From Cylindrotheca closterium (taxonomy: Eukaryota; Bacillariophyta; Bacillariophyceae; Bacillariales; Bacillariaceae): DNA of 64,000 bases. The stretch is from positions 72,000 through 135,999 of the forward strand of contig CAKOGP040002369.1 of the NCBI GenBank assembly GCA_933822405.4, read 5' to 3'. Under the pieces are notes generated by a model. The model was not told the origin of the DNA and did not search any database. It was given only the letters and a program-made list of their open reading frames with translations. The position numbers and the translations under genes are program-made. Positions 3,403-47,855 of this stretch are shown here, piece by piece; position 1 is the first letter of the stretch; every line of letters begins with the position of its first letter.

Positions 3403-6189
3403 CTATGAGGATTCATCATTGCTCGTTGCTTCGTCCAAGTGACCCGATCGCGAGGATTCCTCGATTCCACTCAGAGGCCGATCCATGGAATGTTGTCGGA
3501 CAGTATCAATTTCGGAAGTGGTCTTGAAACTGACCCGTCTTATGTATTTACTTTGGTCACTGGTACCAAAGGATCCCGACATTTCCTCATCGGTACTTTC
3601 GGGTATGCTATCAAAGCTCTTTCGCTTGTTTTGTTGATCATCAAAGTAGGAAAAGGTCGAGTGCGACTTAGGCAGTTGCTTGGATGGAAGAAAAGCCTTG
3701 GAGACACTTGAATTGTTGGAGTTGGGGTTGGACTTGTTGGTGAGATTGAGGCCAGTCACAGAGGTGGTGGATCCCTCTCTTCGGAAAGATGAGGCTGTGA
3801 TTTGGAATCTTGTGTTCTCATTACTAGCAGGTTTGTGTAACTGCTTGTGTCCCTTCACCCACTTGGGAAGGAGATAGATGGTCAAGGCGGAAATAACATC
3901 CAAACTGAGCAACAAACTAGTCGCCACAGCATTGGTATTGGGTTCTTCATCAAATGTCAGGTAGACAATGACTCGAAGGGCCGCAAAGACAAAGTGGGAG
4001 TAAATCATGGTTCCAACCGCTCGTGATTCGTTGAATTCAGCCTTGACTCCTCTCGATTGAAAGGCAAGTACAAAGGCCCAGAGAATTAAAAATCCCTCCC
4101 AAAAGTGATAGCCCGTTACCCAAAACGTATCCTCGGAAGAACAAGTAGCTTGAGCCGAAACGGTCCTGCCATCGTCGACCAAAATGCGAAACATTTCTGG
4201 TCTGGGAGGATCCATAAAGGTCCATACCAACAAAAAGATGGTCACAAAGGATGCCAAGGCAGCTACTTGCAAGTACAAGGTTCGTGGCTTGATGCGCACC
4301 CGTCGCATTCTTCTAGAAGCTCTCATCAATTGATTAATCGCCGAAACCTTGATGATCAAGGGTCCCAACAAACAAGTGTACCCCAGATTGACAAACCAAA
4401 CTTGCGCAAGGCAAGTGGTATTGTCGGGTGTGAGGGCGGCATGCATGATGGAGCTCAAGGCCACGAGAAGCAGCCCAAAGAGCATGATAAAGACGAATTG
4501 GACTTGGGCAAAGACCATGATGCGGGCTTTGCGGTAATGGTAAGTGACCAAAAAGGAGATCAAGACATAGATTGCGGCAAAGATCCCTACTCCTTGCGCC
4601 ACAGTTTTGAGATTTCGTTGTGTCTCGGATTCATTGCGGAGTGTCCGAGGATATCCCACGGGTTTGAACTTGCCCAAGACGTCCATGTTGTTTTGGACCC
4701 ACTCGCAGACGGATTCTCGAGCGGATTGCCCCGTCTTGCCCTTTTTGACATAGTCTCGCAACACCACGGCCAGGTCCAAATCATCAATGTTAAAATTGCG
4801 AATGGCGTAGTATCCAGGAGATTGGTCCACTTCCGGGGTGGCCCGCGTCGAGTCTCTGAGAGAAGAAGCAATCGCCTTTTTGGTAGTGTGTCCAATATTA
4901 TCACAGGATCCTTCCTTGGAGCCTCTTCGTGTCATCGTATCCGCGCTGCAGCGATCGTCCGGAGTCACCCGGGATTCCCGACATTCGACCGACGGACTGG
5001 GCAAATGGACCTTGGTAAATTCGTAGTCGGTCCCCCGAAAGGCTTCTAGGAGTGGATCTGGTTCGTACCACCACATCATGACGTGCTCGTTGGTAGCATT
5101 GGCGGCATCCCAAACTTGGAGCATCTGACTATAGGTATAGCCCGAGTTGACGGTAGCTGTTCCAGAGGATGCCAAGGGAATGTCATTCCAGTAGGTTTGG
5201 GCGTCCAAAAAGGTACTCCAGGTACAAGGAGCATTGACTATGTGTCCAGTACAAGTGCTGTTGCCAAATTCGTTCAGAATGGTACAGTTGGATTCTTGAG
5301 TATGCCGAAAGTGACCAATGTAATTGCCATTCGGAGCAAAGTAACTAGCCTTTTCGGAATCGGTGACAGGATACCTTGAGGCAATTCCATCGGGTTGCGA
5401 ACAATTCATTGTCGAAACCTCGTGACAATAATCTTGCCAACTGGTGGGTCGCTTGAAGATGTCTGCCAATTCTTGTCTCCTTCCGTCCATTCCCACATAG
5501 GTAATGGTAAAGGGATGTTCTTGGGCCGTCTTTTTCGGCACGTACCACGAAATTTTCCCCACCTGTCCATTGCCATCCAAATAATCAATGTCTCCATCAT
5601 CAAAATGACCCAAGAGTGTATCCTTTTGTCCCAACCAGACATCTGGAATCACATGGACACAATCTTCTTCTGTCAATGAACAATCTCCTCCGAGCTCATT
5701 GGCTTTGACCAATGCGTCAAAGGAATACGAGCGTCTACTCAATGGTAACCCAGTGTCCGTGCTGTAAAAGCTGGACTGGAATGTATCGTCCCCCAACCCG
5801 ACGGATGCAGGAACCTCTAGAAACTCGGTCAAGTAAATTTGCATAATCCATGACAAGAAAATGGCCACTTCCCAATCTTGATTGTGAACGCGGATTTCGG
5901 GATATTGGAATTCGGCAATCCGACAGGTTTGTTCCATTCCATTTTTGGTTTCGTGGTTGCCTAACCTCAAATCATCGGCATTGCAGACTCTCATTTTGTG
6001 TTTGTCCGAGTCAAAGCTGTGCAGACATCCCGAGACATATGGATTGCTGCAGACTCCCGCCACGGTGCATTTGGAATTAGGATGATAGATGGCGCTACAA
6101 TCGTAATCCGAAATGCATTCAGAAGAGGCTTGCTCAAGGAGTAGAACGAAAAGCAGCAACAGGACAGAAATGGCTTTTTGGAACACCAT
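3403..6189 (-). CDS. Class C-like seven-helix receptor, second copy
   Basis: 928 residues from an ATG at 6189. Signal peptide at about 1-23, a Cys-rich segment to about 60, and a large N-glycosylatable ectodomain to about 525. Seven hydrophobic helices span about 527-775, followed by a Ser-rich cytosolic tail of about 150 residues. The helical core has the features of 7tm_3 receptors: an ASRRMRR loop after helix 3, conserved Cys in the second and third extracellular parts, and the RGVKAEFNES loop. The ectodomain has blocks such as VHVIPDVWLGQ and MMWWYEPDPL and does not look like an animal Venus-flytrap of the usual length. It may instead derive from a bacterial-type solute-binding fold (inference). 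The tail is rich in Ser, Thr and Asn and could be phosphorylated. It is complete and intronless, with the same orientation as the upstream copy. Confidence 0.82.
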   Translation of the reverse strand: MVFQKAISVLLLLFVLLLEQASSECISDYDCSAIYHPNSKCTVAGVCSNPYVSGCLHSFDSDKHKMRVCNADDLRLGNHETKNGMEQTCRIAEFQYPEIRVHNQDWEVAIFLSWIMQIYLTEFLEVPASVGLGDDTFQSSFYSTDTGLPLSRRSYSFDALVKANELGGDCSLTEEDCVHVIPDVWLGQKDTLLGHFDDGDIDYLDGNGQVGKISWYVPKKTAQEHPFTITYVGMDGRRQELADIFKRPTSWQDYCHEVSTMNCSQPDGIASRYPVTDSEKASYFAPNGNYIGHFRHTQESNCTILNEFGNSTCTGHIVNAPCTWSTFLDAQTYWNDIPLASSGTATVNSGYTYSQMLQVWDAANATNEHVMMWWYEPDPLLEAFRGTDYEFTKVHLPSPSVECRESRVTPDDRCSADTMTRRGSKEGSCDNIGHTTKKAIASSLRDSTRATPEVDQSPGYYAIRNFNIDDLDLAVVLRDYVKKGKTGQSARESVCEWVQNNMDVLGKFKPVGYPRTLRNESETQRNLKTVAQGVGIFAAIYVLISFLVTYHYRKARIMVFAQVQFVFIMLFGLLLVALSSIMHAALTPDNTTCLAQVWFVNLGYTCLLGPLIIKVSAINQLMRASRRMRRVRIKPRTLYLQVAALASFVTIFLLVWTFMDPPRPEMFRILVDDGRTVSAQATCSSEDTFWVTGYHFWEGFLILWAFVLAFQSRGVKAEFNESRAVGTMIYSHFVFAALRVIVYLTFDEEPNTNAVATSLLLSLDVISALTIYLLPKWVKGHKQLHKPASNENTRFQITASSFRREGSTTSVTGLNLTNKSNPNSNNSSVSKAFLPSKQLPKSHSTFSYFDDQQNKRKSFDSIPESTDEEMSGSFGTSDQSKYIRRVSFKTTSEIDTVRQHSMDRPLSGIEESSRSGHLDEATSNDESS

Positions 6190-6912: not shown

Positions 6913-9135
6913 ATGATAAAAATACCCTCCAAACGAACCAGTAGTAACAAAGCAAAAGATCTCGCGGAAAGCGGAGTAGCCACCGTCTTGTCTGTGGATC
7001 AATGGAAGGCCACTCCCGATTCCAAATGCGATTGTCCCAAGGATGAAACAGTGAGTGTCAACTTTATTTGCATGCATCCCGATGGTGCTGATGGAGATGA
7101 TGATAGTGATAAGGCACCACCACCTCAAACACCTCAAACCGACACACCTGGCCTGGCCCAAGCTGCCCGTTATCAAGAAATCTTTCTCGACAAGGTTGGC
7201 ATGCTGTATGCCGTTCAAGACGCTGCCTCACGTCACGTCTTGGACGATCGGTTTGACAGTTTTTTGAGTGACGGTGAAAAACAACTCAAGGATTCTTTGT
7301 TGACGTTCCTGAAAAAGGCAAGTCCAAAAGCCAAGGCAACCCATGCCTTTTCGTATTTGGAAAAACTCCTGAAGACCAAAATGGGGTATCAGGACATGAT
7401 GGGACGTGGTGCGACTCGTACGGCCGCCAAGAGACTTTCCTACTTTTGGAAACCAAAAAAGGAATCAACTACAACCCTGCCAACCACGACGACAGAAAAA
7501 GCGACAACATCAACACCAACATCAACAGCAACATCATCACAACAACCGTCTCGTCCATTGCCCACCACTGCAAACAAGTCAAGCACACCACCATCACAAC
7601 AGCAGTCACCTAAGGCACCAAATCCAGGTCACGTCTTTGTGTGCAATTCCTCGGTGTGCGACATTCAGTGCGATGCCTTTTTGTGTCCTGGCCATATATC
7701 TCGCAAGAAGGAAAACATATCGGGAAGCATCTTTCATCAATGGTACAAGGGTTCTCTTGCGGCGGAACTCATGCGAAAGGCAAAAGGCATGGACGAATTT
7801 CAACAACGACAACAACAAAGACGAGTTGGCACTCATCAGAAACTGCAACAACATCAAGGTTATGATCGAGTCGTGACCATTCAGGAATGGCCACAAGATA
7901 GTGATGCTTTCGATTTGCCTCTGTTGATTGCTGGAGAAGTATCTTTGGAGTCGCAATTGCATGCCTACAATTTGGCTTGCGATAAAAGTGAACGAGCAAC
8001 AAATACTGAGGACCTACCACCAGATGACTTTCGAGTCGAATTTTTGCTGGAAACAGTCCGCCAATTCCTAGAGTTGGCATCGACTCTCGTTCAACAACAA
8101 GGCACGAAAAAACCAAATGTCCATCGAGAACGTTATTTGCTGGCGGTTCCCATATTGGGAACGGGTGGAGGCTACGCTGGGGACATGACGGGACAGATTG
8201 TGTACAAGTTGCTGGAAATGGTCACCAATTTTGTTGCCTCCAGCACTCCTAATATGGATGTGGTGGTGGTCACGGTCGACGATGCCACCTATGCTCACGC
8301 CCAAGTCATTCGAAAGAATCAACTCGGCGAGTCATCCGGAAGGTATCCTTGCTTTGCAGCCTTGTCCAAAAGTCAAAATGACTATGCTGCTCAATTGGCC
8401 AGTTTGGCAGAAGGTCGACATTTGGCACTCTTTGTGGGTGCTGGGGTTAGCATTGGATCTGGTTTGCCCAGCTGGTTTGGTTTACTGAACTTGGTAGAAG
8501 ATGCCTTTACTCCCACTGGAAACTCGTCAGAACGAAGCGTGGGAGACGATTGCGACTGGGATCCATTGGCCATGGCCCAAGTATTGAAAGACTGGTGCGA
8601 CACCAAGCCGGATCGGAATGGAGTGCAACAGTCATTGAAGAAACGAGTCTGTCAGTGCTTGCAAGACAATGGCCGCACGCTCGGACTCTTGCTATGTTTG
8701 CTCATGTCACTCCCCTTTCATTCCATGGTGACTCAAAATTACGATACTCTGATTGAACAAGCCTGTCAAAAGTGGAGTCTTGCCGCAATCAGGCATGGAC
8801 CACTCACTGGAAACACTACGAAACGCAACTTGAGTGTGATTCCCTATCGTCCCCAACGCAAAGCTCACTATTGGCTGTTGAAGATGCACGGATGCGTATC
8901 TCGGCCGGAAGATATTATATTGACCGAAGACGACTATGCTCAGTATTCTACCTCGTCCAAAGCCCGCGCGTTGGATGGGTTGGTCCAAGCGAGTTTACTC
9001 ACCAAACACTTCTTGTTTGTGGGCTTTAGCTTGACAGATCCCAACTATTTGCGGATCATAGATCAAGTGAGAGAAGCGCTGTATCGGGATGATCCATCGT
9101 ACCATGACAGTCGCGATGATGATTCTTCACAATGA
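6913..9135 (+). CDS. Macro-like domain fused to SIR2-like NAD-binding domain
   Basis: 740 residues, one exon, no signal peptide or membrane segment. Order: an N-terminal helical region (1-180), a Thr/Ser/Pro/Gln-rich linker (185-240), a macro-like domain (about 240-470), and a SIR2-like domain (about 500-735). The macro-like call rests on CDIQCDAFLCPG near its start and VPILGTGGGYAGDMTG later. The SIR2 call rests on four ordered motifs: GAGVSIGSGLPSW (nucleotide-binding loop), TQNYDTLIEQ, LKMHGCVSRPEDI with the candidate catalytic His, and FVGFSLTDPNYL. This is the SIR2_2-like class, which in bacteria includes NAD-depleting defence effectors, rather than the sirtuin deacetylases: there is no zinc Cys pair. 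Likely activity is NAD binding or hydrolysis with ADP-ribose sensing by the macro part (inference). Bacterial origin is possible. The domain order is clear; the biological role is unknown. Confidence 0.8.
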   Translation: MIKIPSKRTSSNKAKDLAESGVATVLSVDQWKATPDSKCDCPKDETVSVNFICMHPDGADGDDDSDKAPPPQTPQTDTPGLAQAARYQEIFLDKVGMLYAVQDAASRHVLDDRFDSFLSDGEKQLKDSLLTFLKKASPKAKATHAFSYLEKLLKTKMGYQDMMGRGATRTAAKRLSYFWKPKKESTTTLPTTTTEKATTSTPTSTATSSQQPSRPLPTTANKSSTPPSQQQSPKAPNPGHVFVCNSSVCDIQCDAFLCPGHISRKKENISGSIFHQWYKGSLAAELMRKAKGMDEFQQRQQQRRVGTHQKLQQHQGYDRVVTIQEWPQDSDAFDLPLLIAGEVSLESQLHAYNLACDKSERATNTEDLPPDDFRVEFLLETVRQFLELASTLVQQQGTKKPNVHRERYLLAVPILGTGGGYAGDMTGQIVYKLLEMVTNFVASSTPNMDVVVVTVDDATYAHAQVIRKNQLGESSGRYPCFAALSKSQNDYAAQLASLAEGRHLALFVGAGVSIGSGLPSWFGLLNLVEDAFTPTGNSSERSVGDDCDWDPLAMAQVLKDWCDTKPDRNGVQQSLKKRVCQCLQDNGRTLGLLLCLLMSLPFHSMVTQNYDTLIEQACQKWSLAAIRHGPLTGNTTKRNLSVIPYRPQRKAHYWLLKMHGCVSRPEDIILTEDDYAQYSTSSKARALDGLVQASLLTKHFLFVGFSLTDPNYLRIIDQVREALYRDDPSYHDSRDDDSSQ

Positions 9136-10612: not shown

Positions 10613-13059
10613 ATGAGTAATCCATCAACCAACAACATTGTTACCATACCAGAATCACCTCCTCCTCCACTTCCTCTGATGCGACAATATTCGAATCCGA
10701 AAAATCACCTGGATGGTAGCAAGTGTCGTCGTCATCGTCATCACTCATCGGCTGATGGCAGCAGCAACAACAACAACAAGTACACGACACCATCTCGCTT
10801 GGTAGTAACAACAGCTAGGTCGCCCATGCCAGAAGCCCGCCAAGATGCTTCGTCGTCCTATGAAATTCGGACTCCTCCTCCTCCGCAAGAACATCGGTCC
10901 TTGGTATCCAAAGATTCTCATGTAGCAGCATCCTTGAGGCAACCCCTGTCGTGGTCTCCTCATCATCAGCAGCATCATCAGCACCAAGACGTTTCAAAAT
11001 CAGGATCCATCGATATCACGTCAGCATCTCCACTCGATGGGGTAAGTTTTTCTACAACGTGGTCAACTGTTCCATTTATGTATTACAGCTTGACATTTCT
11101 CACCTAACACATACTATAATAGTGGCCACAACGAAGTCCCATGGAGCACGATGACGATGCCGATGTGGCCTCCTTTGCCTTGTTTACTCAATCCTTTGAT
11201 ACCATTTCGGAGAGTGGACATTACTTTCGAGAGGCAGATGCTACCGCCACAACAACAGCAACAACAACCACGCAAGGAGATTTGCTGCCTCGCAAGTTGG
11301 ATCTCAAGCCTCGAAGCAACCATGGTGGTCATCATCAGAAGCCGCATGCCAAGGAGGATGCTTTGGTGGGAAATCTCTCACCAATTCAGTTGGGACCGGA
11401 GGAAAGTACTCCACCACCAGCAAGAGCCAAACGATCAGCGCCACCTCAAGTCCATTACCCCCATCAGCAGTACCACCCTCATCCACAGCCGCCATTTGAT
11501 CCGTATCATGGTTATCCACCTCCTCCACACCCGGATCAACCGCCGACACCCTATTACCAGTACGATGGGACACTGCCACCCCCACCGCCGCCACTAGGTT
11601 TCGACGAAGGCTATGGGTATTCTCCTCCTCCTCCTCCAGGATATGATCCACGAGGTCCTCCTCCCCCACCCACTGCTGGGCACTATCCACCACCACACCC
11701 ACCACCACATGTTGCCACGATGCAACGATCCAATCCCTTTTATGTCTTGCGGACGGCCCACCGGGCATTCTTGGGATGTTCTTATTTGCTGCCTTGTTTG
11801 GAAAATCGAGAAGTCATTCCCATTCATTTGGGAGCGCACTCGAGTTTTCGATTGCTCCAGGATCCAACCTGCATTCCAGATGCCCATGAAGTCATTGTGG
11901 CCAAGCAACGGGTGGAAACGGCCATTTGCACGTTCGGTGGCCAGCTGTCATCCGCTGTGGTGCAAAAGGATGCCATTTTTCGTCGACGCCTTGCAAGTAA
12001 TAAATCGAGTTGGAAGAAGCTGTACGACGATCGGTTTCATGGACGATATGTGGTCAAGCCAACCCACATTGATTGGCGCCTGGAAGAGAATCCACCGGTC
12101 CATTACGAGCGAAATGCTGCTGCTGCTGCTGCCAAAGCAAATCGCCAATTGGCAAGTGGCAATCCAAGTGGCAATCCAAGTGGAAATGCCAATGGCGACT
12201 GCGAAATGGAGGAAGACAATGCAGACTCTATGGTGTCGGTGGTTACCCTGGAGAATAATCAACAAAAGATGAAATATCGGTACGTTTGTTTGTATTGGGT
12301 CTCATTGCCAAATGGCCATGATTATGATGCTGCAACTCTAATTCATTTTTCTTTCCCTTCCATAGATGCAAACTTTGTGGCCAGTTGAAGCAGAATCACA
12401 GTTGTCCATATCAACAGTCGCTCCAGAGAAGCATTGGAATCAATGTGTATCCCGCCGTCAATGCCTTTACGGCCAGGGAGCCGGGTCGTTTGACCAAGTC
12501 ACTGTCGGAAATGAACAATTTTGTTTCCTATGAATCATCAAGCCAGAATGCTGGTGTTCCAAAGTCGTTTCCCTCTTCCTCCTATGTGACTCCGGAAACC
12601 AAGGCTCGAGACATTCATTCATCGCCGTCCTCGTTGACGACTGTGGACAGTATGGAAGGAAAGGAGGATGGCAGTACACCAGTTTCCAGTCGCATCAAGT
12701 CGTCCAAGAGACGCGACGCGAAGCCCTTTGTCAAGACGTTGACGCTTCGGCAAGAACACTTTCGTGCCGTGACGCCCATGGCGAGTGAGGGAGGTTGCGA
12801 CTACCAGTATCCACATGTGCCACTTAGCTTTCGGGAGCGAAAGCGTTTGAGCGACACATTATTTTTCTTGTCAAAGGAGATTCCGGACATGACAGTGCCG
12901 GTCGCGTCTCTCTTGCGGACAGCGAGGAGCAGGAACGAATGGGACTTGTGCGTCGCCGAGCTCTTGACGCAAATTGTTGTTGGGCTTTACTGCCGAGAAG
13001 GGGACCATCGATTGGATGGCTTGCAAGATTACCTTTTACGATTGGGAGTAGCATGTTGA
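10613..13059 (+). CDS. Diatom conserved protein with Cys/His motif, plus-strand paralogue (three exons)
   Basis: Exons 10613-11041, 11123-12279 and 12366-13059; introns of 81 bp (GTAAGT...ATAG) and 86 bp (GTACGT...ATAG). The product is 759 residues. The N-terminal half is low complexity (Ser, His, Gln, then long Pro/Tyr runs). The C-terminal half matches the minus-strand neighbour. Shared blocks are an AFxxCSxLLPxL block, a RVxxAxCxFGG block, and a CKLCGQxKQNHxCPYQQS block (C-x2-C-x6-H-x-C, possibly metal binding). After these come IGIxVYPAVNAFT, a RKRLSDxLFxLSKE block and a WDLxVAELxTQ ending. I do not recognise a named family. Pro-rich tails plus a small Cys/His motif suggest a nuclear or scaffold role, but that is a guess. 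It faces its paralogue tail to tail, 146 bp apart. Intron 2 splits the Arg codon just before the first Cys and is absent from the paralogue. Confidence 0.85.
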
Positions 13060-13205: not shown

Positions 13206-16200
13206 CTAACACGAAATACCGAGGGTCAAGAGATAGCGTCGTAGACCCTCGAATCGGTTGTCCCCATCCGAACAGTTGGCCACAATGACAACCTGTGTCA
13301 TTAGTTCAGCCACTGCCAAATCCCACATGTCCCTTTCTCTTGCTTCACGCAATACTGCGGCACATTCGTCAGTGAGTTGAGGAACTTCCTTCGAAAGTGA
13401 AAACAAGTTATCACTGAGTCGTTTGCGCTGTGCGTATGGAAGAGGAAGAGCCGGATATGTAAATGCTTCTGTTCGGGAAAGCTTCTTAGAAGCTGCGATT
13501 ATTCGGAATTGTTCGGGCTTGAGATCCGCAGATTCGACAAAGAGAAGATCGCCTTGTTCCTCCCCATTCATCTGAGAGTGTGAGCGCTTCTTCATTGCCG
13601 ATCCTGGTGCAGTGCCAGCCATGTATCGTTGGGTTGATCTAGTACCTCGTCTGGCAATAGAACCAGGAGTTCGAGTTCTCTGCGGTGTGCTCGTTGTGAT
13701 TGAAGTGATTGGAGAATGAAGTCCTCTACTGCCATTGTGCAATGACTCGGGTGTCACTTGGGCCGAGCTTGGACCGACAGCGGGGGGATGACGCATACGG
13801 TCGGGGGTGGGCCGGTTGGGAGAATTTTCGGTAGACGAAATAGATTCTCCCGAACCAATGAAATTGTTCATTTCGGACAAGGCAGGTGCTATAACACCAG
13901 GTTCCGTCGACGTGAATGCATTGACCGCAGGGTACACCTGGATACCAATGCTTCTAGCGAGTGACTGTTGGTAAGGACAAGTGTGGTTCTGCTTTGGCTG
14001 CCCACACAGTTTGCATCGGTAACGCATTTTCGGTTGATCTGATTGCGAGCCATCGTTTTCTTCTCCCTTCTCGTCTGATTCATCGTTTGGATCTTCTGAA
14101 TCACCGTGGTCCTGCTTGATTGGATTTCCTTCGCTGTCCATCATAATTTCACCATTGCCACCCTCCGATTCATTCCTCATGGCCAATTCATCATCCTCGT
14201 CGTCCTTCATGGATGTCGCTGCCTCAATCGGTGGATCCTCTTCAAACTCCCACGACAAGCGGTTGTCATTCTCGTAGTATCTTCCAGGCAAAGCTTCATC
14301 ATACTTGGACTTGGGGCGAGAATTGTACCCATTGGCAGGCGAGGTCGTGGATGACGATGGGGTGACAGTAGCTGTTTCCGTCGTCTTTTCACGGAAGATA
14401 GACTGGGTCGTCATTGGAGCTGATTTCTGTAGTGCTCGATCTCCAATAAACGTTCCTCCAAAGGCACAGACAGCGGAAGCCACACGTCTCGATGCGATTG
14501 CAGCATCATGTGGTGATGGATCTCCAAATGGCTGTAAAGGGTAACAAGCGTGTGAGTAAGATGAATGCTTGAAGGAACAATCGCAATCAATGTGATGTAG
14601 TAAGATACTTACTGAACGAGATTGGCGTTTGGGTGTATCATCAGGGTCCTTCTTCATATCTCCAGGCGTCTCCAATAGTGCTGCTTTAAGTCCAGGCAAC
14701 AAAAAGGAGCACTCTTTGAAGGCATCTTTGTTTCGCTTCAAGAAAGCATAGAACAGTGGGCTTCCGTCTGGATTCTCCATGATTCCCCCACTTGAATGGT
14801 TCATTGGTGGATTCGGAATGTGTGGTCCTCCGTGCATGCTGCGGTCTTCAAGTGGTCGTTGTTTGGTCTTTGGCGATCCTCCTCCGGAATAAGATTGGTA
14901 CATGTTGAGCACTTGGGATGGACTGGAAGATCCAGTTTGCTCGCCTCCGAGAAGCATCATGTTGCCACCTCGGGACGGTGGGCCATTGCCAAAAGAATTA
15001 CTGGGGCTCATGCCAAAGGTACCATTGAGAACACCCGAACTAGATCCTCCCAAGAGCTGTTGAGTAATCGAATTGCCTCCCGAAGATGACAGTTGCAGAT
15101 CTGGACCCTTTTCGTTGTCGTCGGACCCAAGGCCTCCACCAAAGGAAGAGGATTGTAGGGCAGAATCCAGTGGACCGCCCACATTGAAAAATCCGGTGCC
15201 ATCGCCAAGGCTATCAAACGATTGGTTGAAGAGTGAAAACGATGGCGCCATGTCAAGGGAGTTTGTAGGTTGAGGTGTTCCTTGCGGGTTGCTCTTGGGA
15301 CTTCGTGTCGGCTGTTGTTGGCAAATGACGATTGAGGAGTGGTTAGCGTGATGGATCGAATCAACAACACCAATCTTTAGTGTCACAGTTGTGTACTTAC
15401 TTCAAAAAATAGACTCGAGTCGGCGCCGCTTGGATGATGCGAATGTTGGATTCGAGGAGGCTCATGCGGACTCAATTCCGAACTTCCTTGCTTGTCCTTG
15501 GATCGGTTGTTCGCTGATGGTGCAGATGCCTTTTCCTCAAACGAGGTGGTTGGCGTTTGGATAGACATGAGCACTTTCTGTGGATTGCTTTCTTCGGGAT
15601 TGCTTTGAGCAACGCCTGGGCGACCACGGAAGACTGAAGCAGCAGCCGCTCGGCTGAGAGGAGCTTGTTCTGATGCTCTTGGTACATGTATAGGAGTAGC
15701 AGTCCCAATTACCCGAGTAGTTCGTTTCCCCGGAGTCGAAACACTTTCACCGCCCCTTGCTACATCTTGTAGCATTCCGCGGTAGCCCTCGTCTCGCATA
15801 TCTCTCATATATGGAGGACGATCTCCTCCTCCCGCCCCTCTCCGAAAGGGATCAGCACCGTACCCTGGTGGTGGTCCTTGTTCTAGTCCCCGGCCACGAC
15901 CCATGCGTTCATCGTAGACATGTCGTGACATGTTGGGATCCCCGCCATAGCGCCGATCGTAATCTTGTTCTGTGTATGGTGGACGGCCATATGGATCTCC
16001 TCTTCCCCGAGCTCCACGATAGACATAACTTGGATCAGCACCACCCCGGTATCCATATTGGTCTTCCCGTCTTGTTGGCATAGGCTGTAGTGGCATGGAA
16101 GGATGCCCTGATGGGTGTCCATATCTAGAGCTAACGCTGGCTCTAGATGGTGGACGTCCATCTTCTTCTGGCGGCCAGCCTCCAGCTCTTGGATCTCTGT

Positions 16201-19564: not shown

Positions 19565-20974
19565 ATGACGACGACCGCACCACCAACACAACCACCACCA
19601 CCACCACCACCACCACCACCAACATCAGCAACAATCACACCAGCACAAAAGCGGGAGAAGAAAAAGCAAGCCCCGGTAAAGGCGGCCGCAAGACGAGAAA
19701 CGAGGAAGCATACAACCAGAGACGATGACGAGGCTGATCCGAATGTGCTTGCTGCAAATAATAAGGGTGGAATCGCTGTTGAGGATCATGACATTATAAG
19801 TATGAGAACTCCTACTTTTGCATTACAGGATTATGTGAAAGTAAAAGCTGATTTTGGTGATCCAGGGACCAATAATCGTCCGGCCGGACGTGGTTTTATC
19901 CAGGAAATCCATGGATTTGGTGGAACATCTACATATACTGTGAAGTATGAAGGAGAGGATCCGGGAGGAACGTTCAAAGGGATCCCTTTGTCTGATATTT
20001 CTCCTCTACCTGTTGTAAATTCAGTTTTTTCCAACACTACCAACACTACCAACACAAGCACCCCTCGAAGGAAGCGACAGAAGATCCAACCAAGTTCATC
20101 AGTCGCTCCCTGTCCATCGGCCGAAACGAAGTCATCAACAAAGAAGAAACAGTCTCCCGGTGGGGAGCTTGTTAGTAGACTTCGTCATGCTCTCAGTAAC
20201 GACAAGGAGAAGGGATGGCGGCGTAAGGAACTTGGTTGGATGCCACCTCCAAAGGCGAATGCCAAACGCCAGCCGAAGCTTACCAACCAGGAGAAGTCGC
20301 AAGTACTAGTAGATGTTGCCTTGCTGGAAACATTCCTAGAGGCTCAGGGGAATGGCAGTGGCAATGGCAATGGCAACAACCATTATCAAGAGAAGGACGC
20401 AGTCTCTGGAAAATTCAAGAAGCGGGTTACAAAGTGGAATCCAATGTCCATTGGGTATCTTGTCAATCATTCTTGGGGCCTTTCGAATTCGTACTTGTGT
20501 CGGCTTCAAAAGCAGCAGCAGCAGCAGCAAAAGGCGAACGAGAATGCGGCCACTGGTGCAACTTTTTTCGAAGCCAGAAAAAAAGCAAGCAAGAAGGCGA
20601 GATGTGTGATTGATGACTACGAGCTGGCAGAAAAGTTATTCACAACAAGCTACCTTTATGCTGTGAGTGAATGCCGGAGACAGGCGCGAGCAAATCTGGA
20701 GGAGGTTGTTGACCAGAAATTATACCACCAGCGTTTCAAAGCCGCAAAGGAGAAATTCAAAACTTTGGATGATGACACAAAGGCAGTCTGGGAATTCCAA
20801 AGACGTGCTCACTTGTCGCGGCATGCCACCATCAAGGATCAAATCATTCGTGCTAGAAAGACAAATCCAAAGTGTTCGTGGCGATCCATTGAAGAAGAAA
20901 TTGACCACTGGTGTTGTGACGCAACCATTCGTAGATGGGCAATGGCAAGGGAAGGAGGAAACAAGATACTGTAG
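19565..20974 (+). CDS. Proline-rich protein with HTH-like C-terminus, possibly transposon-derived
   Basis: 469 residues, single exon. It begins with a (CCA)n-encoded run of about ten prolines and a Lys/Arg-rich stretch. A beta-rich segment around DYVKVKADF...TYTVKYEGEDPGG (about residues 88-145) has a Tudor/chromo-like look. A Ser/Lys linker and a helical C-terminus follow, ending in KCSWRSIEEEIDHWCCDATIRRWAMA, which reads as a helix-turn-helix. Diatom DNA transposon proteins often combine a 'YVKVK' segment with such a helix-turn-helix, followed by a DDE catalytic domain. Here the stop comes directly after the helix-turn-helix and no DDE part follows in the next kilobase. It could be a domesticated or truncated transposase N-half, or an unrelated DNA-binding protein. 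The family link is from memory and unsure. Confidence 0.6.
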   Translation: MTTTAPPTQPPPPPPPPPPTSATITPAQKREKKKQAPVKAAARRETRKHTTRDDDEADPNVLAANNKGGIAVEDHDIISMRTPTFALQDYVKVKADFGDPGTNNRPAGRGFIQEIHGFGGTSTYTVKYEGEDPGGTFKGIPLSDISPLPVVNSVFSNTTNTTNTSTPRRKRQKIQPSSSVAPCPSAETKSSTKKKQSPGGELVSRLRHALSNDKEKGWRRKELGWMPPPKANAKRQPKLTNQEKSQVLVDVALLETFLEAQGNGSGNGNGNNHYQEKDAVSGKFKKRVTKWNPMSIGYLVNHSWGLSNSYLCRLQKQQQQQQKANENAATGATFFEARKKASKKARCVIDDYELAEKLFTTSYLYAVSECRRQARANLEEVVDQKLYHQRFKAAKEKFKTLDDDTKAVWEFQRRAHLSRHATIKDQIIRARKTNPKCSWRSIEEEIDHWCCDATIRRWAMAREGGNKIL

Positions 20975-27265: not shown

Positions 27266-28543
27266 ATGGAGGGGGGCAGTAGTAGCAAAGAAGCCTTATT
27301 GTTGTTGGTCGAGGAACTCTTGAAGATGGGCGCTCTCTGTTATGAACGACAGCACTACAAAAAGGCAAGGGAGAATTTTGAGAGTGCGTTGGAGATACAA
27401 AGAAAATATTTGGATGAAGATGACCTTGCTGTGGCCGACACACTCAATGACATTGGGAATGTGCTGATGTGGGAAGGAAAACTGGATGAAGCTTTAGAGA
27501 AACTCAACACAGCACTGCCGATACGTGTGAAAAAATTGGGAAACCACCGTGACACGGCGCAAACATCCATAATGATTGGCAATATTCTTGAAGTACAAGG
27601 CAATTACGAAAAAGGCGAAGAAATGTTCCGGAAAGGTCTGGATATCAAGTGCGAAATCCTGCCAAATGACCATGATGAAGTCACGGAAATGTACCAAAGT
27701 ATAGCGTTGTCATTGAAAAAACAAGGCAAGTTTTCGGAAGCAACCAAGATGCTCAAGGTCCAACTTGCAAAGCTACTAGATATGCATGGGGAATACCACC
27801 GTGGCGTTGTACTTGTATACGATGGTATTGCAGAGCTGCTGGCACTTCAAAATAGGCCTGACGATGCTCTTCAGATGCTTGATAGAGGCATTGAGATTTG
27901 CAACCGATTAACACCGCTGGGAGACCCCGACACCAAGAAGACATTGGAAGTAACTCTTACCAGTAAAGCAGACATACTTCTCGAACAGGGTAACTTCGAA
28001 GCTACCACAGAGGTGCTCAACAAGTTGTTAGGGATAAAAGTGGAAACGGATCCCACATTATTCCAGACCTATGAACAGCTTGCAACGGTATACGGCCGAC
28101 GAGGAATGATAGAAGATGCCAGGAAGGCATTAAAGGCTGCCATCGACATTCTTCGAAAGGGGGGTGGCCATGATCATCCCATCGCACAAAGGCTTGCGCG
28201 CAACCTCGCACAGTTAGACCTTGAGAAAATGCCGAGAGCACTGAATGAACAGGGATTGGCAATGAAAGCAGAAGGCGAGTCGGAAAAGGCTGTACAACTC
28301 TTCCAACAGGCACTTGATAGCTACATGGAAATCGCTGTTGCAAATCCCAGCAATATAGCAGAAGTGTACGAGAATCTTTCGGCTGTGAAAGTCGAACAGG
28401 GGTTTCTGGAGGATGCCCTTGTGGCGAGTTCAAACGGACTCAAGATTCGTCGAAGAACGCTTGGCGACGATCATGTTGACACGAAGCGACGAATGGAAGC
28501 GCATAGATCTTTGCTGATACGTCACTTGGAGAATCGGAGCTAA
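27266..28543 (+). CDS. Kinesin-light-chain-like TPR protein, intact copy 1
   Basis: 425 residues, single exon, ATG at 27266. Almost the whole protein is 42-residue TPR units of the kinesin light chain type (ALEIQRKYLDEDDLAVADT, ALPIRVKKLG, ALKIRRRTLGDDH). It ends in a basic tail with RSLL and LENRS. Such repeats form a helical solenoid for protein binding. No kinesin-type coiled coil precedes them, and no catalytic domain is present. Partners are unknown. It is one of three intact copies in the window; fragments of the same gene lie at 28626, 36206, 38790, 46326, 50737 and 53688. The intact 5' part and absence of stops argue that it is functional. Confidence 0.85.
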   Translation: MEGGSSSKEALLLLVEELLKMGALCYERQHYKKARENFESALEIQRKYLDEDDLAVADTLNDIGNVLMWEGKLDEALEKLNTALPIRVKKLGNHRDTAQTSIMIGNILEVQGNYEKGEEMFRKGLDIKCEILPNDHDEVTEMYQSIALSLKKQGKFSEATKMLKVQLAKLLDMHGEYHRGVVLVYDGIAELLALQNRPDDALQMLDRGIEICNRLTPLGDPDTKKTLEVTLTSKADILLEQGNFEATTEVLNKLLGIKVETDPTLFQTYEQLATVYGRRGMIEDARKALKAAIDILRKGGGHDHPIAQRLARNLAQLDLEKMPRALNEQGLAMKAEGESEKAVQLFQQALDSYMEIAVANPSNIAEVYENLSAVKVEQGFLEDALVASSNGLKIRRRTLGDDHVDTKRRMEAHRSLLIRHLENRS

Positions 28544-41029: not shown

Positions 41030-42862
41030 CTAGTCCTGTGGACCAAGAATCAGATCCCTGAACTTGCAAAACTTCTCACTTTGCAATGGCTGCGTCATAA
41101 AATTCCAAATCATATTGTCAGTTGGACAGTATTTGATCTTAACATTTCCTTTCTCAATTTGATCTGTGATAAAGAAATAACGAATATTGATAGCTCTGCT
41201 TCTTTTGCCCGCGCTCTTGCGACCATTCTCTTCCAGTAGAATTGCGCTTTTGTTATCCTGATACAAGCTATTCTTCTCAATCAGATACCCTTGCCACTCC
41301 ATGAACAACTTAGTCCATAATATCATAGTGACAACATTGTCAACAGCAATCAGTTCCGCTTCCGTACTGCTTCTGCTGTTTAGTTTTTGTTTCTTCGACA
41401 TCACTTGAGCTGCACCTCCTCCAAAAGACAGAGTGCCGCCAGTATGATGGCTCTTGAAATCCGGATGCACCGCAAAAGATGCGTGGATCATCCAGTTCAT
41501 GACTTGTAGTGATTCTGCGGAAAGTGTCAGGTGATACAACAATGTACAAAACAAATATTGCATCATGCGAACACACTTCTTCCAATCAGACTCTGTAGGT
41601 TCTTGAACTCTCGAGGCAAGAATAGTAATCGTTGGATGGATATCCAAACGAGCTCTCTTAGAGACATAAAGTCCCCTTGCAACAGTAGTATGAAAGATTT
41701 GACGGTACTCAGCATTGAGTAACTTTCCTTTCCCAGCCTCCAGTAAATCGTTACCAGCTGGTGTTTCCTGCTTTGAATCCTTGTTGAACTTGATAGGAAA
41801 ATCTTCCAACATGTTCTTGACATAGTTGTCCATGCGGATCTTGAGTTTTCCTTTCACCGAGAAATCCAAAGTCATTCCAAGATATCTGTGTATCTTTCCT
41901 CTGACAATTGTACATGCCTTGATTGAACCATATCTCATGTTCAACCACTTAGCAAATTCGTCATTTACTTTTGGATCCATGTGACTCGACATAAGATCGT
42001 CAACATGAGATCTGATAGTTTGCTGTTTTTCATCAACAACTTTGTTAGCAACACACGGGTCATAGGGATTGAAAACAAATCCCTTTGCCTCCAAATCACT
42101 TTGAAACTGATTATAGAATAGGAGGCGTAGTACCCGCACATAGATTACTTGCTTTCTGTTCTCTAAAACAACGTATTTGCGATACTCTGGGGCCATGTCA
42201 ATCAATATCTGGACCATCATGCAAGTGATTTTCATGTAGATACGATCTTCTCCTTCCTTAGCTTCAGGCATATAAGTTTGAATGAAAGCATTAGGCACGT
42301 CCATCGTCATTATATCTCTACCTTTGTTTGCATCAATAACACAGGTAGTGGTTATTGCTTCTTGCAAAGCAGTTGGACTTGCAGTGTCCTCTCGCAATAA
42401 CCATTCATGTGTTCCATCGCCTTGGTATACTAAGCGACCTTTAACTGTCTTTTTGAATTGCTTTTCTGCGAGTAACATCATTGCTGATTGGGCCTTCTTT
42501 CGCTCAGACACGGTCATGCCTTTCACAAATTTGGGAGTAAAACAATCTCTCAGGAGCATTTGTCTCAATTCCTTATCCACAGCATCTTTTCCATCCTCAC
42601 CAAACTTCTTCAGTCCTTGATTGATGTAATACTGTTGAATGAAGTTCAGACCTTTGTCAGTATCAAACTTTGCCTTGATCTGCATCATACAACAAGCGAT
42701 CAGAATAGCGTCGTGCTCTTCATAATCAGCTTTCATCTCATTCCCAATCTGTTGGAAACATAGATTGTGCTGTGCTTCAAGGATAGCTTTCCTGTTTTTA
42801 GTACTGCGACTTCCCTCTTTGGTACAAATACCAGACTTCAATTTGTCCTTCAACGGTTTCAT
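41030..42862 (-). pseudogene. Copia reverse transcriptase and RNase H
   Basis: 610-residue open frame. RT landmarks are MDVPNAFIQT and HVDDLMSSH (the catalytic Asp pair). RNase H landmarks are SSTEAELIAVD, QDNKSAILLEENGRKS and the C-terminal NMIWNFMTQPLQ. Between VLRLL and FYNQF about nine residues of the usual LYG block are missing, which would damage the RT palm. The frame is open, but lacks its own proper start because it is the pol end of a polyprotein. The frame is broken upstream (42863-42895). Confidence 0.85.
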
Positions 42863-46595: not shown

Positions 46596-47855
46596 ATGCA
46601 AACAATGGAGCGCAACAAACAGTACTCAGTTGAGGAATTCATTGAAAAGTCAAGTGTCCACTATGAACAACGAAACTATCAAAAGTCGAGGGAGATGTTA
46701 GAGAGAGTGCTGGAAATACGAACGAAACAGTTAGGTGAAGATGATGTTGCTGTTGCATGGGCACTTCACGAGATTGGGAATGTACTGTGGAAGGAAGAAT
46801 CTTTGAACGATGCCTTGGAGAAATTCAATAGAGCACTTCCGATACGTGTGGAGAAATTGGGAAGACATTGTGATACGGCGGAAACCTACACGAGCATTGG
46901 CAATATTCTTAAATCACAAGACCACGACGAAAAGGCAGAAGAAATGTTCCGGAAAGCTCTGGACATGAAGCGTGAACTTCTTTCAAATGATCATCCTGAT
47001 GTGACGGATCTCTGCCTGTATCTTGCGAAAGCGTTGAAAAAGCAAGGCAAGTATTCAGAAGCAATCAAGGTACAGAAACTCCAACTTGCGAAACTACTAG
47101 AAATGCGTGGGGAAGACCACCCCGGTGTTGTACTTATATATAATGGCATCGCAGAGCTGTTACAAATTCAACATAGGTCGGATGATGCTCTTCGATTGCT
47201 TGATTTAGCCATCGAAATTTGCAATCGATTGGAAATTAAAAAGTCATTGGTAACAACGCTCCGCCATAAAGCAAACATACTAAACGAAGAGGGTGACTTC
47301 GAAGCTTCGGCGGCGATTCTCACCAAAGTGATAATGGTACAAATCGAGACGGATGGTGAAATGCACCCAAAAACAGCACAGGTCTACGAAGATCTTGCAA
47401 TAGCATATATCCAACAAGACATGATAGAAGGTGCCACCAAGGCGTGCGCGAAAGCCATCAAGATTCGTCGAAAGGAGCTTGGCAATGATCATCCCAAGGT
47501 AAAAGAGCTTGCGCTCACACTTGGAATGTTAGACCTTCAGCAATATCCGAGAGAACTAAATGAACAGGGATTGGCAATGAAAGCAGTGGGCGAGTCGGAA
47601 AAGGCTGTACAACTCTTCCAAGATGCACTTGATATTTACGAGGAAACCTCGCATATCGATCCCTTTTCAGCAGCCGTGTACGAGAATCTTTCTGCTGTCA
47701 AAGTTGATCAAGGATTGCTGGAAGACGCCATTGCTGCGAGTGCAGAAGCTCTCAAGATTCGTCGAAGAACGCTTGGCGACGATCATTTTGACACGAAGCG
47801 ACGTATGGAAGCGCATAGGTCATTGTTGAAACGTCTCTTGGAGAATCGGAGCTAG
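46596..47855 (+). CDS. Kinesin-light-chain-like TPR protein, intact copy 2
   Basis: 419 residues, single exon, ATG at 46596 (a second ATG three codons on). Regular 42-residue TPR units throughout (ALEIRTKQLGEDDVAVAW, ALPIRVEKLGRHCDTAETY, ALDMKRELLSNDHPDVTD, AIKIRRKELGNDHPKVKE). It ends in the family tail RSLLKRLLENRS. No membrane segment or catalytic domain. Followed after 250 bp by a relic of the sulfite oxidase last exon, repeating the TPR-then-sulfite-oxidase order seen at 27266-31520. Confidence 0.87.
   Translation: MQTMERNKQYSVEEFIEKSSVHYEQRNYQKSREMLERVLEIRTKQLGEDDVAVAWALHEIGNVLWKEESLNDALEKFNRALPIRVEKLGRHCDTAETYTSIGNILKSQDHDEKAEEMFRKALDMKRELLSNDHPDVTDLCLYLAKALKKQGKYSEAIKVQKLQLAKLLEMRGEDHPGVVLIYNGIAELLQIQHRSDDALRLLDLAIEICNRLEIKKSLVTTLRHKANILNEEGDFEASAAILTKVIMVQIETDGEMHPKTAQVYEDLAIAYIQQDMIEGATKACAKAIKIRRKELGNDHPKVKELALTLGMLDLQQYPRELNEQGLAMKAVGESEKAVQLFQDALDIYEETSHIDPFSAAVYENLSAVKVDQGLLEDAIAASAEALKIRRRTLGDDHFDTKRRMEAHRSLLKRLLENRS

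Follow-up and report, generated by a model that had tools for sequence, protein, structure and literature searches.

In ThsA of the Thoeris system a SIR2 domain comes first and a SLOG domain follows, and cleavage of nicotinamide adenine dinucleotide (NAD+) is abolished by the N112A and by the H152A mutation, the latter of which also disturbed the oligomer (PMC7272460). DSR2, KomC and the SIR2-STAND protein Avs5 have other sensor parts, and a macro domain is named in none of the entries listed for them. In ThsA of the TM-macro type, a macro domain is the nucleotide sensor of an immune effector and binds ADP-ribose and IAD (PMC11204291). Among eukaryotes, human FAM118A and FAM118B are SIR2_2 proteins described as vertebrate-specific (PMC12700824), and Mfs1 is a macrodomain-SirTM fusion of fungi, Phytophthora and Entamoeba that is tied to oxidative stress (PMC4518038, PMC11490716). 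The pairing of a macro domain with SIR2_2 had itself already been noted, since the legend of Extended Data Fig. 2 in an excerpt of PMC12700824 names Macro among the additional domains of SIR2_2 proteins. Here we describe a gene of the diatom Cylindrotheca closterium that encodes a macro domain, a SIR2_2 domain and a third segment, the C-block, in one chain. It occupies 6913..9135 (+) of a 64,000-nucleotide stretch of contig CAKOGP040002369.1, hereafter the window; all features of the gene given below are on this strand.

The frame consists of 740 codons and a stop codon, and we refer to its product as P0001. Like Mfs1, P0001 is a eukaryotic protein that combines a macro domain with a sirtuin; unlike P0001, Mfs1 carries SirTM, an ADP-ribosyltransferase, and the excerpts of PMC4518038 and PMC11490716 describe no C-block for it. 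In contrast to Thoeris ThsA, the macro domain of P0001 precedes the SIR2 domain, only 14 residues follow residue 726 and no SLOG domain stands after SIR2. The effector part of TM-macro ThsA is transmembrane and without a SIR2 domain, which again differs from P0001 (PMC11204291). An unnamed bacterial family has three blocks that are all homologous to those of P0001, but the C-block stands last there and first in P0001.

Block order in the diatom and bacterial proteins

We denote the macro domain M, the SIR2 domain S and the C-block C. The C-block comprises the two closing strands of the SIR2 sheet together with a helical region. The bacterial order is M-S-C, whereas P0001 and 28 relatives have the order C-M-S. 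The initial clue was that the N-terminus of the diatom protein (ATALS, then LDDRFDSFLS) resembled the bacterial C-terminus in the first alignment. As placed by hidden Markov models (HMMs), alignment and hhalign, the C-block lies at 6955..7392 (residues 15-160) at the N-terminus of P0001 and is C-terminal in the bacterial and haptophyte relatives. Its predicted strand 1 (6973..6993, residues 21-27), which aligns with the late bacterial SIR2 strand FGTAL, and its predicted strand 2 (7054..7068, residues 48-52) were located from the AlphaFold2 (AF2) model and the alignments, and its helical part with the LDDRFDSFLS motif (7153..7392, residues 81-160) from the AF2 model and HMM matches. A linker rich in Thr, Ser, Pro and Gln (7405..7620, residues 165-236) leads from the former C-terminus to the former N-terminus; the predicted local distance difference test (pLDDT) score is below 50 at residues 164-233, and the tandem repeat CAACAT lies inside the linker region at 7505-7544. 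Across the 29 C-M-S members the linker has 41-254 residues. The macro domain (7621..8337, residues 237-475) and the main part of the SIR2_2 domain (8350..9090, residues 480-726) follow.

HMMs for the three blocks were built on 16 non-diatom proteins and run on 178 proteins and on the long frames of 80 bacterial loci. The protein sets comprised 63 listed matches and the best 120 of 797, and the proportions of block orders are no census. Among the 257 sequences matched, 214 had the order M-S-C (210, three with a split macro match, and P0033 with a split SIR2 match) and 29 the order C-M-S (20, and nine with a split macro match); the others were M-S (6), S only (5), S-C (1), M-S-C-M-S-C (P0064) and S-C-M-S (P0052). 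The 16 model sequences match their own HMMs by construction, and 121 of the 136 M-S-C proteins lie outside that set. Each C-M-S member (29 of 29 complete) gave a single C match, always ahead of M and S. P0001 matched the bacterial HMMs at E 7.3e-16 for C (residues 47-158), 3.3e-22 for M and 3.6e-60 for S. Past the SIR2 match there were 3-43 residues in the 29 C-M-S members and at least 109 (median 132) in the 136 M-S-C proteins.

The comparison in the other direction gave the same correspondence. An HMM made from 28 diatom N-blocks matched 22 of 29 non-diatom proteins at E <1e-4 and one at 0.3, and the best of 1479 decoys reached E 0.005. Six proteins had no match, namely P0046, which ends early, and P0059-P0063, which have only the SIR2 part in common. 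Profile-profile alignment of the C-blocks with hhalign scored 99.3% in global and 99.1% in local mode, with 0.2% for a reversed-column control. When the C-block alignment of 14 bacterial loci was set against the whole diatom profile, columns 31-159 of 746 were picked at 97.8%. The C-terminus of P0033, an M-S-C protein, aligned with residues 17-160 of P0001 at 33% identity (E 8e-14).

In the model of the bacterial protein P0038 the C-block runs through a strand (410-414), a helix, a strand (429-433) and helices from 441; the diatom model has strands at 21-27 and 48-52 and helices from 81. The fold match to ThsA extends over 1-217 for the diatom C-terminal part and over 1-282 for the P0038 model, and both C-block strands of P0038 lie within the segment aligned to ThsA up to 282. 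Because these two strands belong to the ThsA-aligned part, the models place the cut within the SIR2 fold, between the helix downstream of GFSLTDPN and the last two strands. The diatom form is thus almost certainly a circular permutation, with the same segments in rotated order and each present once. The rotation, its clade and the kept catalytic residues are established at the level of sequence comparison.

An earlier note on this DNA had described a single 740-residue frame in which a macro-like domain is followed by SIR2. The frame and the motifs quoted there stand, as the translation of 6913-9135 contains CDIQCDAF, VPILGTGGGYAG and LKMHGC, together with GAGVS, NYD and GFSLTDPN. Both domains are indeed in one frame; their order needs amendment, as the predicted last two SIR2 strands lie ahead of the macro domain. 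Nor is the fusion a diatom novelty. The three-part architecture is an old bacterial one, of which the diatom form is almost certainly the permuted version. Our searches of the open literature listed no paper recognisable as being about a permuted SIR2 or the diatom family, and brought up neither the rotated order nor the C-block nor the diatom clade; "permut" is absent from the text of PMC12700824. A search of the C-block profile confined to the PDB gave nothing convincing (best E 0.48).

SIR2 and macro domains

The SIR2_2 family (Pfam PF13289) matched residues 604-723 with 86.3 bits, against a curated cut-off of 24.5, and all 31 members of the alignment of the listed relatives (A3) matched SIR2_2 at E 0.01. 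The four SIR2 motifs scanned for, the GAG and GFSL-type motifs among them, were present in 29/29 C-M-S members. By sequence alignment, Asn609 (8737..8739) and His659 (8887..8889) are the counterparts of ThsA Asn112 and His152, the residues covered by the mutation data in the excerpt of PMC7272460, and both are conserved in all 29. The SIR2_2-type domain with its four motifs, and the candidate catalytic His in LKMHGC, are therefore as the earlier note had them. The closest solved structures to the SIR2 part were ThsA and then DSR2/KomC, while SIRT5 chains, which are ordinary eukaryotic sirtuins, gave only E 0.5-1.8, in agreement with the view that this is no ordinary eukaryotic sirtuin. The match of P0001 to the ThsA profile covers only positions 14-215 of 478.

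Pfam macro models, including PF01661, gave no match to P0001 at E up to 10. Macro chains led the fold comparison for the region of residues 237-475, so that the predicted structure has a macro fold, and a bacterial macro profile weakly matched macroH2A1.1 (E 8.1e-5). The macro identity proposed earlier is thus supported by the predicted fold and by weak sequence similarity, though it lacks a Pfam match. SLOG was considered as an alternative identity; macro chains top the fold lists, SLOG is unlisted there (which is no exclusion), and the macroH2A1.1 match agrees with macro. The GTGGG at 8158..8172 (residues 416-420) is presumably the phosphate-loop-like motif of macro domains.

Origin and relatives of the rotated form

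Two trees were made, both with a midpoint root. The careful tree used the macro and SIR2 parts, with the C-block excluded, of 54 chosen rows that included 17 of the 29 C-M-S members. Left out, among others, were the second copy of P0064, P0058, the second copy of P0052 and P0044 (long branches), and P0034. The 17 C-M-S rows formed one clade (99/91) with P0033 as its sister (100/100), and the next branch was P0050 of the haptophyte Prymnesium parvum, also M-S-C (96/90). In the quick tree of 98 rows the labelled group of 30 needed two changes because P0034, a fragment without the C-block, fell within it; this group included P0023, a sequence also without the C-block. The careful tree is most simply explained by a single rotation that took place once the P0033 lineage had diverged. 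A wider search with P0033 for unrotated eukaryotic forms scored 7991 candidates, probably drawn by low-complexity words, and returned two proteins, P0033 itself included.

Tandem duplication is the classical route to circular permutation, and tandem forms occur in this family. P0064 (1028 aa) is a full tandem, M-S-C-M-S-C, in one chain, and P0052 (809 aa) a partial one, S-C-M-S. The second SIR2 copy of P0064 lacks GAG and has KING in place of KMHG; P0052 has NYD and KMHG in its first part only, and its sole GAG is located in the macro region.

The bacterial members belong to Myxococcota, Planctomycetota, Actinomycetota and other groups. Since they span phyla and the named eukaryotic members are algae only, transfer from bacteria to algae is favoured and seems likely; the unrooted trees give no proof of it. 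The bacterial source suggested earlier is accordingly likely, with full-length relatives in bacteria. Among the other protein matches listed, 33 of 62 (P0002-P0034) are close kin of P0001, which excludes a chance origin of the frame, and the nearest listed relative has 62% identity (A3). The close relatives that bear organism names among the matches listed come from Cylindrotheca, Amphora, Seminavis and Fragilaria, all of them diatoms. The whole coding frame has one match in the 47.6 Mb genome of the window, where it is the only SIR2_2 match.

Some members carry additional pieces. P0003 and P0004 have a Cys-rich (zinc-ribbon-like) N-terminal extension. A search of the window gave no upstream exon resembling it (best tblastn E 0.048), and elsewhere in the same genome G000:C2:75437-75700 resembles residues 18-104 of P0004 (47% identity, E 1.1e-17). 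In P0027 (1029 aa) fused BspA-type leucine-rich repeats precede the C-M-S unit, and P0040 (901 aa), of M-S-C order, shows weak similarity to Tudor close to its N-terminus (21.0 bits, where the cut-off is 23).

The window has 13 other frames of at least 330 codons. Ten were scanned, and six of these had Pfam matches, which include a class C receptor, EF hands and TPR repeats; the gene sits among eukaryotic genes, as in a eukaryotic nuclear contig. A neighbouring frame, 3403-6189 (-), encodes a receptor domain of class C (7tm_3; E 2.1e-34). About 18 kb separate two TPR_12/TPR_10-rich frames, 27266-28543 (+) and 46596-47855 (+), that are similar in length, and the long open frames 11141-12388, 13206-15251, 19565-20974 and 41030-42862 had no Pfam match at E 1e-5.

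Proposed function and alternatives

We regard P0001 as probably a SIR2 NAD hydrolase that derives from bacteria, is gated by a macro domain and was permuted once. It would be a diatom member of the bacterial M-S-C family, in which the C-block moved ahead of the macro domain once, among the ancestors of the diatom clade, with a disordered linker joining the old ends; the route would be tandem duplication and subsequent trimming of the two ends. Asn609 and His659 would hydrolyse NAD+ as in ThsA. NAD cleavage is to be expected with good probability, because these residues align with ThsA N112 and H152 and are kept in 29/29 C-M-S members. The macro domain may bind an ADP-ribose-type ligand, product or signal, as a likely sensor, and gate the enzyme. 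The chances for and against such gating are about equal. Gating would probably act through the oligomer state, because ThsA, Avs5 and FAM118 are so described in the excerpt of PMC12700824.

Several points weigh against this interpretation. The macro-loop Asp, the adenine-binding residue of macro domains, occurs in 155 of 199 matched bacterial-type rows (nine further rows unmatched) and in P0040 and P0050; P0033 has Ala there, and in 29/29 C-M-S members it is replaced by Ser or Pro, because of which their macro ligand may have changed or binding may have been lost. The first C-block strand aligns weakly, as the C-block HMM begins at residue 47 of P0001, and the local hhalign alignment spans only the later part of the block. 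That the N-terminal strands still close the SIR2 sheet in the folded diatom protein is inferred. The C-terminus of P0033 favours diatom N-blocks only narrowly: its best match among them has E 4e-15, and its best among bacterial C-blocks 5e-13. P0064 and P0052 fall outside the diatom group in both trees, and therefore show that doubling occurs in the family, not that they are actual ancestors. Both of them and P0033 are proteins of unnamed source, and the label "diatom" extends to the entire C-M-S group from organism names on 4 of its 28 other members.

The rotated order itself might have arisen by domain shuffling, with a diatom ancestor giving up its C-terminal block and acquiring a homologous one at the N-terminus from another gene. 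Block order alone cannot separate such a transfer from duplication with subsequent trimming, the linker is long and differs in length between members, and P0003, P0004 and P0027 show that the N-terminus takes other pieces too. However, the predicted cut runs within the SIR2 fold, between the last long helix and the last two strands and not at a domain edge, the M-S-C sister P0033 ends in this block, which by a small margin is closest to the diatom N-blocks, and tandem forms are present in the family; we consider shuffling improbable. Little probability likewise attaches to a pair of the Mfs1/SirTM kind, in which the SIR2 part would ADP-ribosylate a protein and the macro part remove the mark in oxidative stress. 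Macro and sirtuin types do share a chain here as in Mfs1, yet the SIR2 part is SIR2_2, a subfamily separate from SirTM in the excerpt of PMC12700824, its nearest solved structures are ThsA, DSR2 and KomC, and the C-block goes unmentioned for Mfs1 in the excerpts cited above. A catalytically dead scaffold, retained for binding only, would account for the lost macro-loop Asp and for the missing motif residues in the second SIR2 copy of the tandem forms. It is very improbable in view of the ThsA-essential Asn and His and the GAG and GFSL-type motifs, which persist in 29/29 C-M-S members.

The biological role of the proposed NAD hydrolase is a separate matter, on which the bacterial members bear. 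Immunity is favoured by the nearest characterised SIR2_2 kin by sequence, which are defence NADases, and by the sporadic presence of the bacterial members, which in three groups occur in 10/59, 8/81 and 6/79 genomes (with the starting genome counted each time and the top 18 to 25 candidates of every genome scored); two of these members have a stop in frame. For the defence-island test at most two open frames per side were taken in 29 of 80 bacterial loci, which gave 111 frames when the longest frame was crudely taken as the gene. Against PADLOC at E 1e-10, 61 of these frames hit 57 families; the 25 listed each matched four members and were mostly kinase-type by name. The other 50 frames hit eight families with one member each, including CARF-AAA-HTH and type IV restriction models. 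With few defence-type neighbours in the loci sampled and no system called, the case for a bacterial defence island was judged weak. Also counting against immunity, a search of the window's genome in six frames with the single TIR family TIR_2 gave no match and hence, for this one family, no ThsB-type partner, and neither plasmids (limit 1e-20) nor phages (limit 1e-5) yielded a match for P0038.

The neighbour cluster shared most widely (12/79 loci) contains protein-kinase genes. Among ten upstream genes scanned, a kinase lay directly upstream on the same strand in L005, L014 and L023, and the gene of L021 had restriction-type domains. The kinase genes (L014:6048-10001, L005:8264-9940, L023:6518-9961) are 0-61 bases from the bacterial family gene; the upstream kinase is a possible partner, or a chance neighbour in kinase-rich genomes. 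A viral origin was also considered. Of 26 pattern matches in viral contigs, scanned with the diatom alignment, none was confirmed, and the one row at E <0.001 in a BFVD fold search (probability 0.23) was judged chance.

A housekeeping sensor of NAD or ADP-ribose, for instance in redox or light-dark control of NAD, would agree with the single match in the genome, with retention across raphid and araphid diatoms among the named members, with the lack of plasmid and phage matches for P0038 and with some bacterial neighbours of an ordinary kind, among them PrmA and a lipid kinase. The sporadic bacterial members look accessory, however, and the closest characterised SIR2_2 proteins are defence NADases; such a role appears rather unlikely. 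For the macro-gated NAD hydrolase, immunity or stress-triggered NAD loss is a tentative assignment, below even likelihood, and the immune role suggested in the earlier note stands at about one in three. More speculative, and unlikely, is a bacterial defence-type NADase captured by algae and rearranged by a single permutation that tied the sheet-completing piece to the macro sensor, in which the macro ligand would dock or release the last strands via the flexible linker and so switch on NAD destruction in cell death or immunity.

To our knowledge, natural circular permutations through a catalytic sheet have seldom been caught with an unrotated sister and tandem forms surviving. Automatic annotation overlooks the C-block and the macro domain, as Pfam at gathering level marks one SIR2_2 stretch only in P0001. 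Alongside FAM118, the eukaryotic SIR2_2 proteins gain an algal branch in this family, which also offers a direct test of how a macro domain and a SIR2 NADase cooperate. If the unlikely switch just outlined proved true, control of a eukaryotic death or immune switch would have been made by protein topology and not by new domains.
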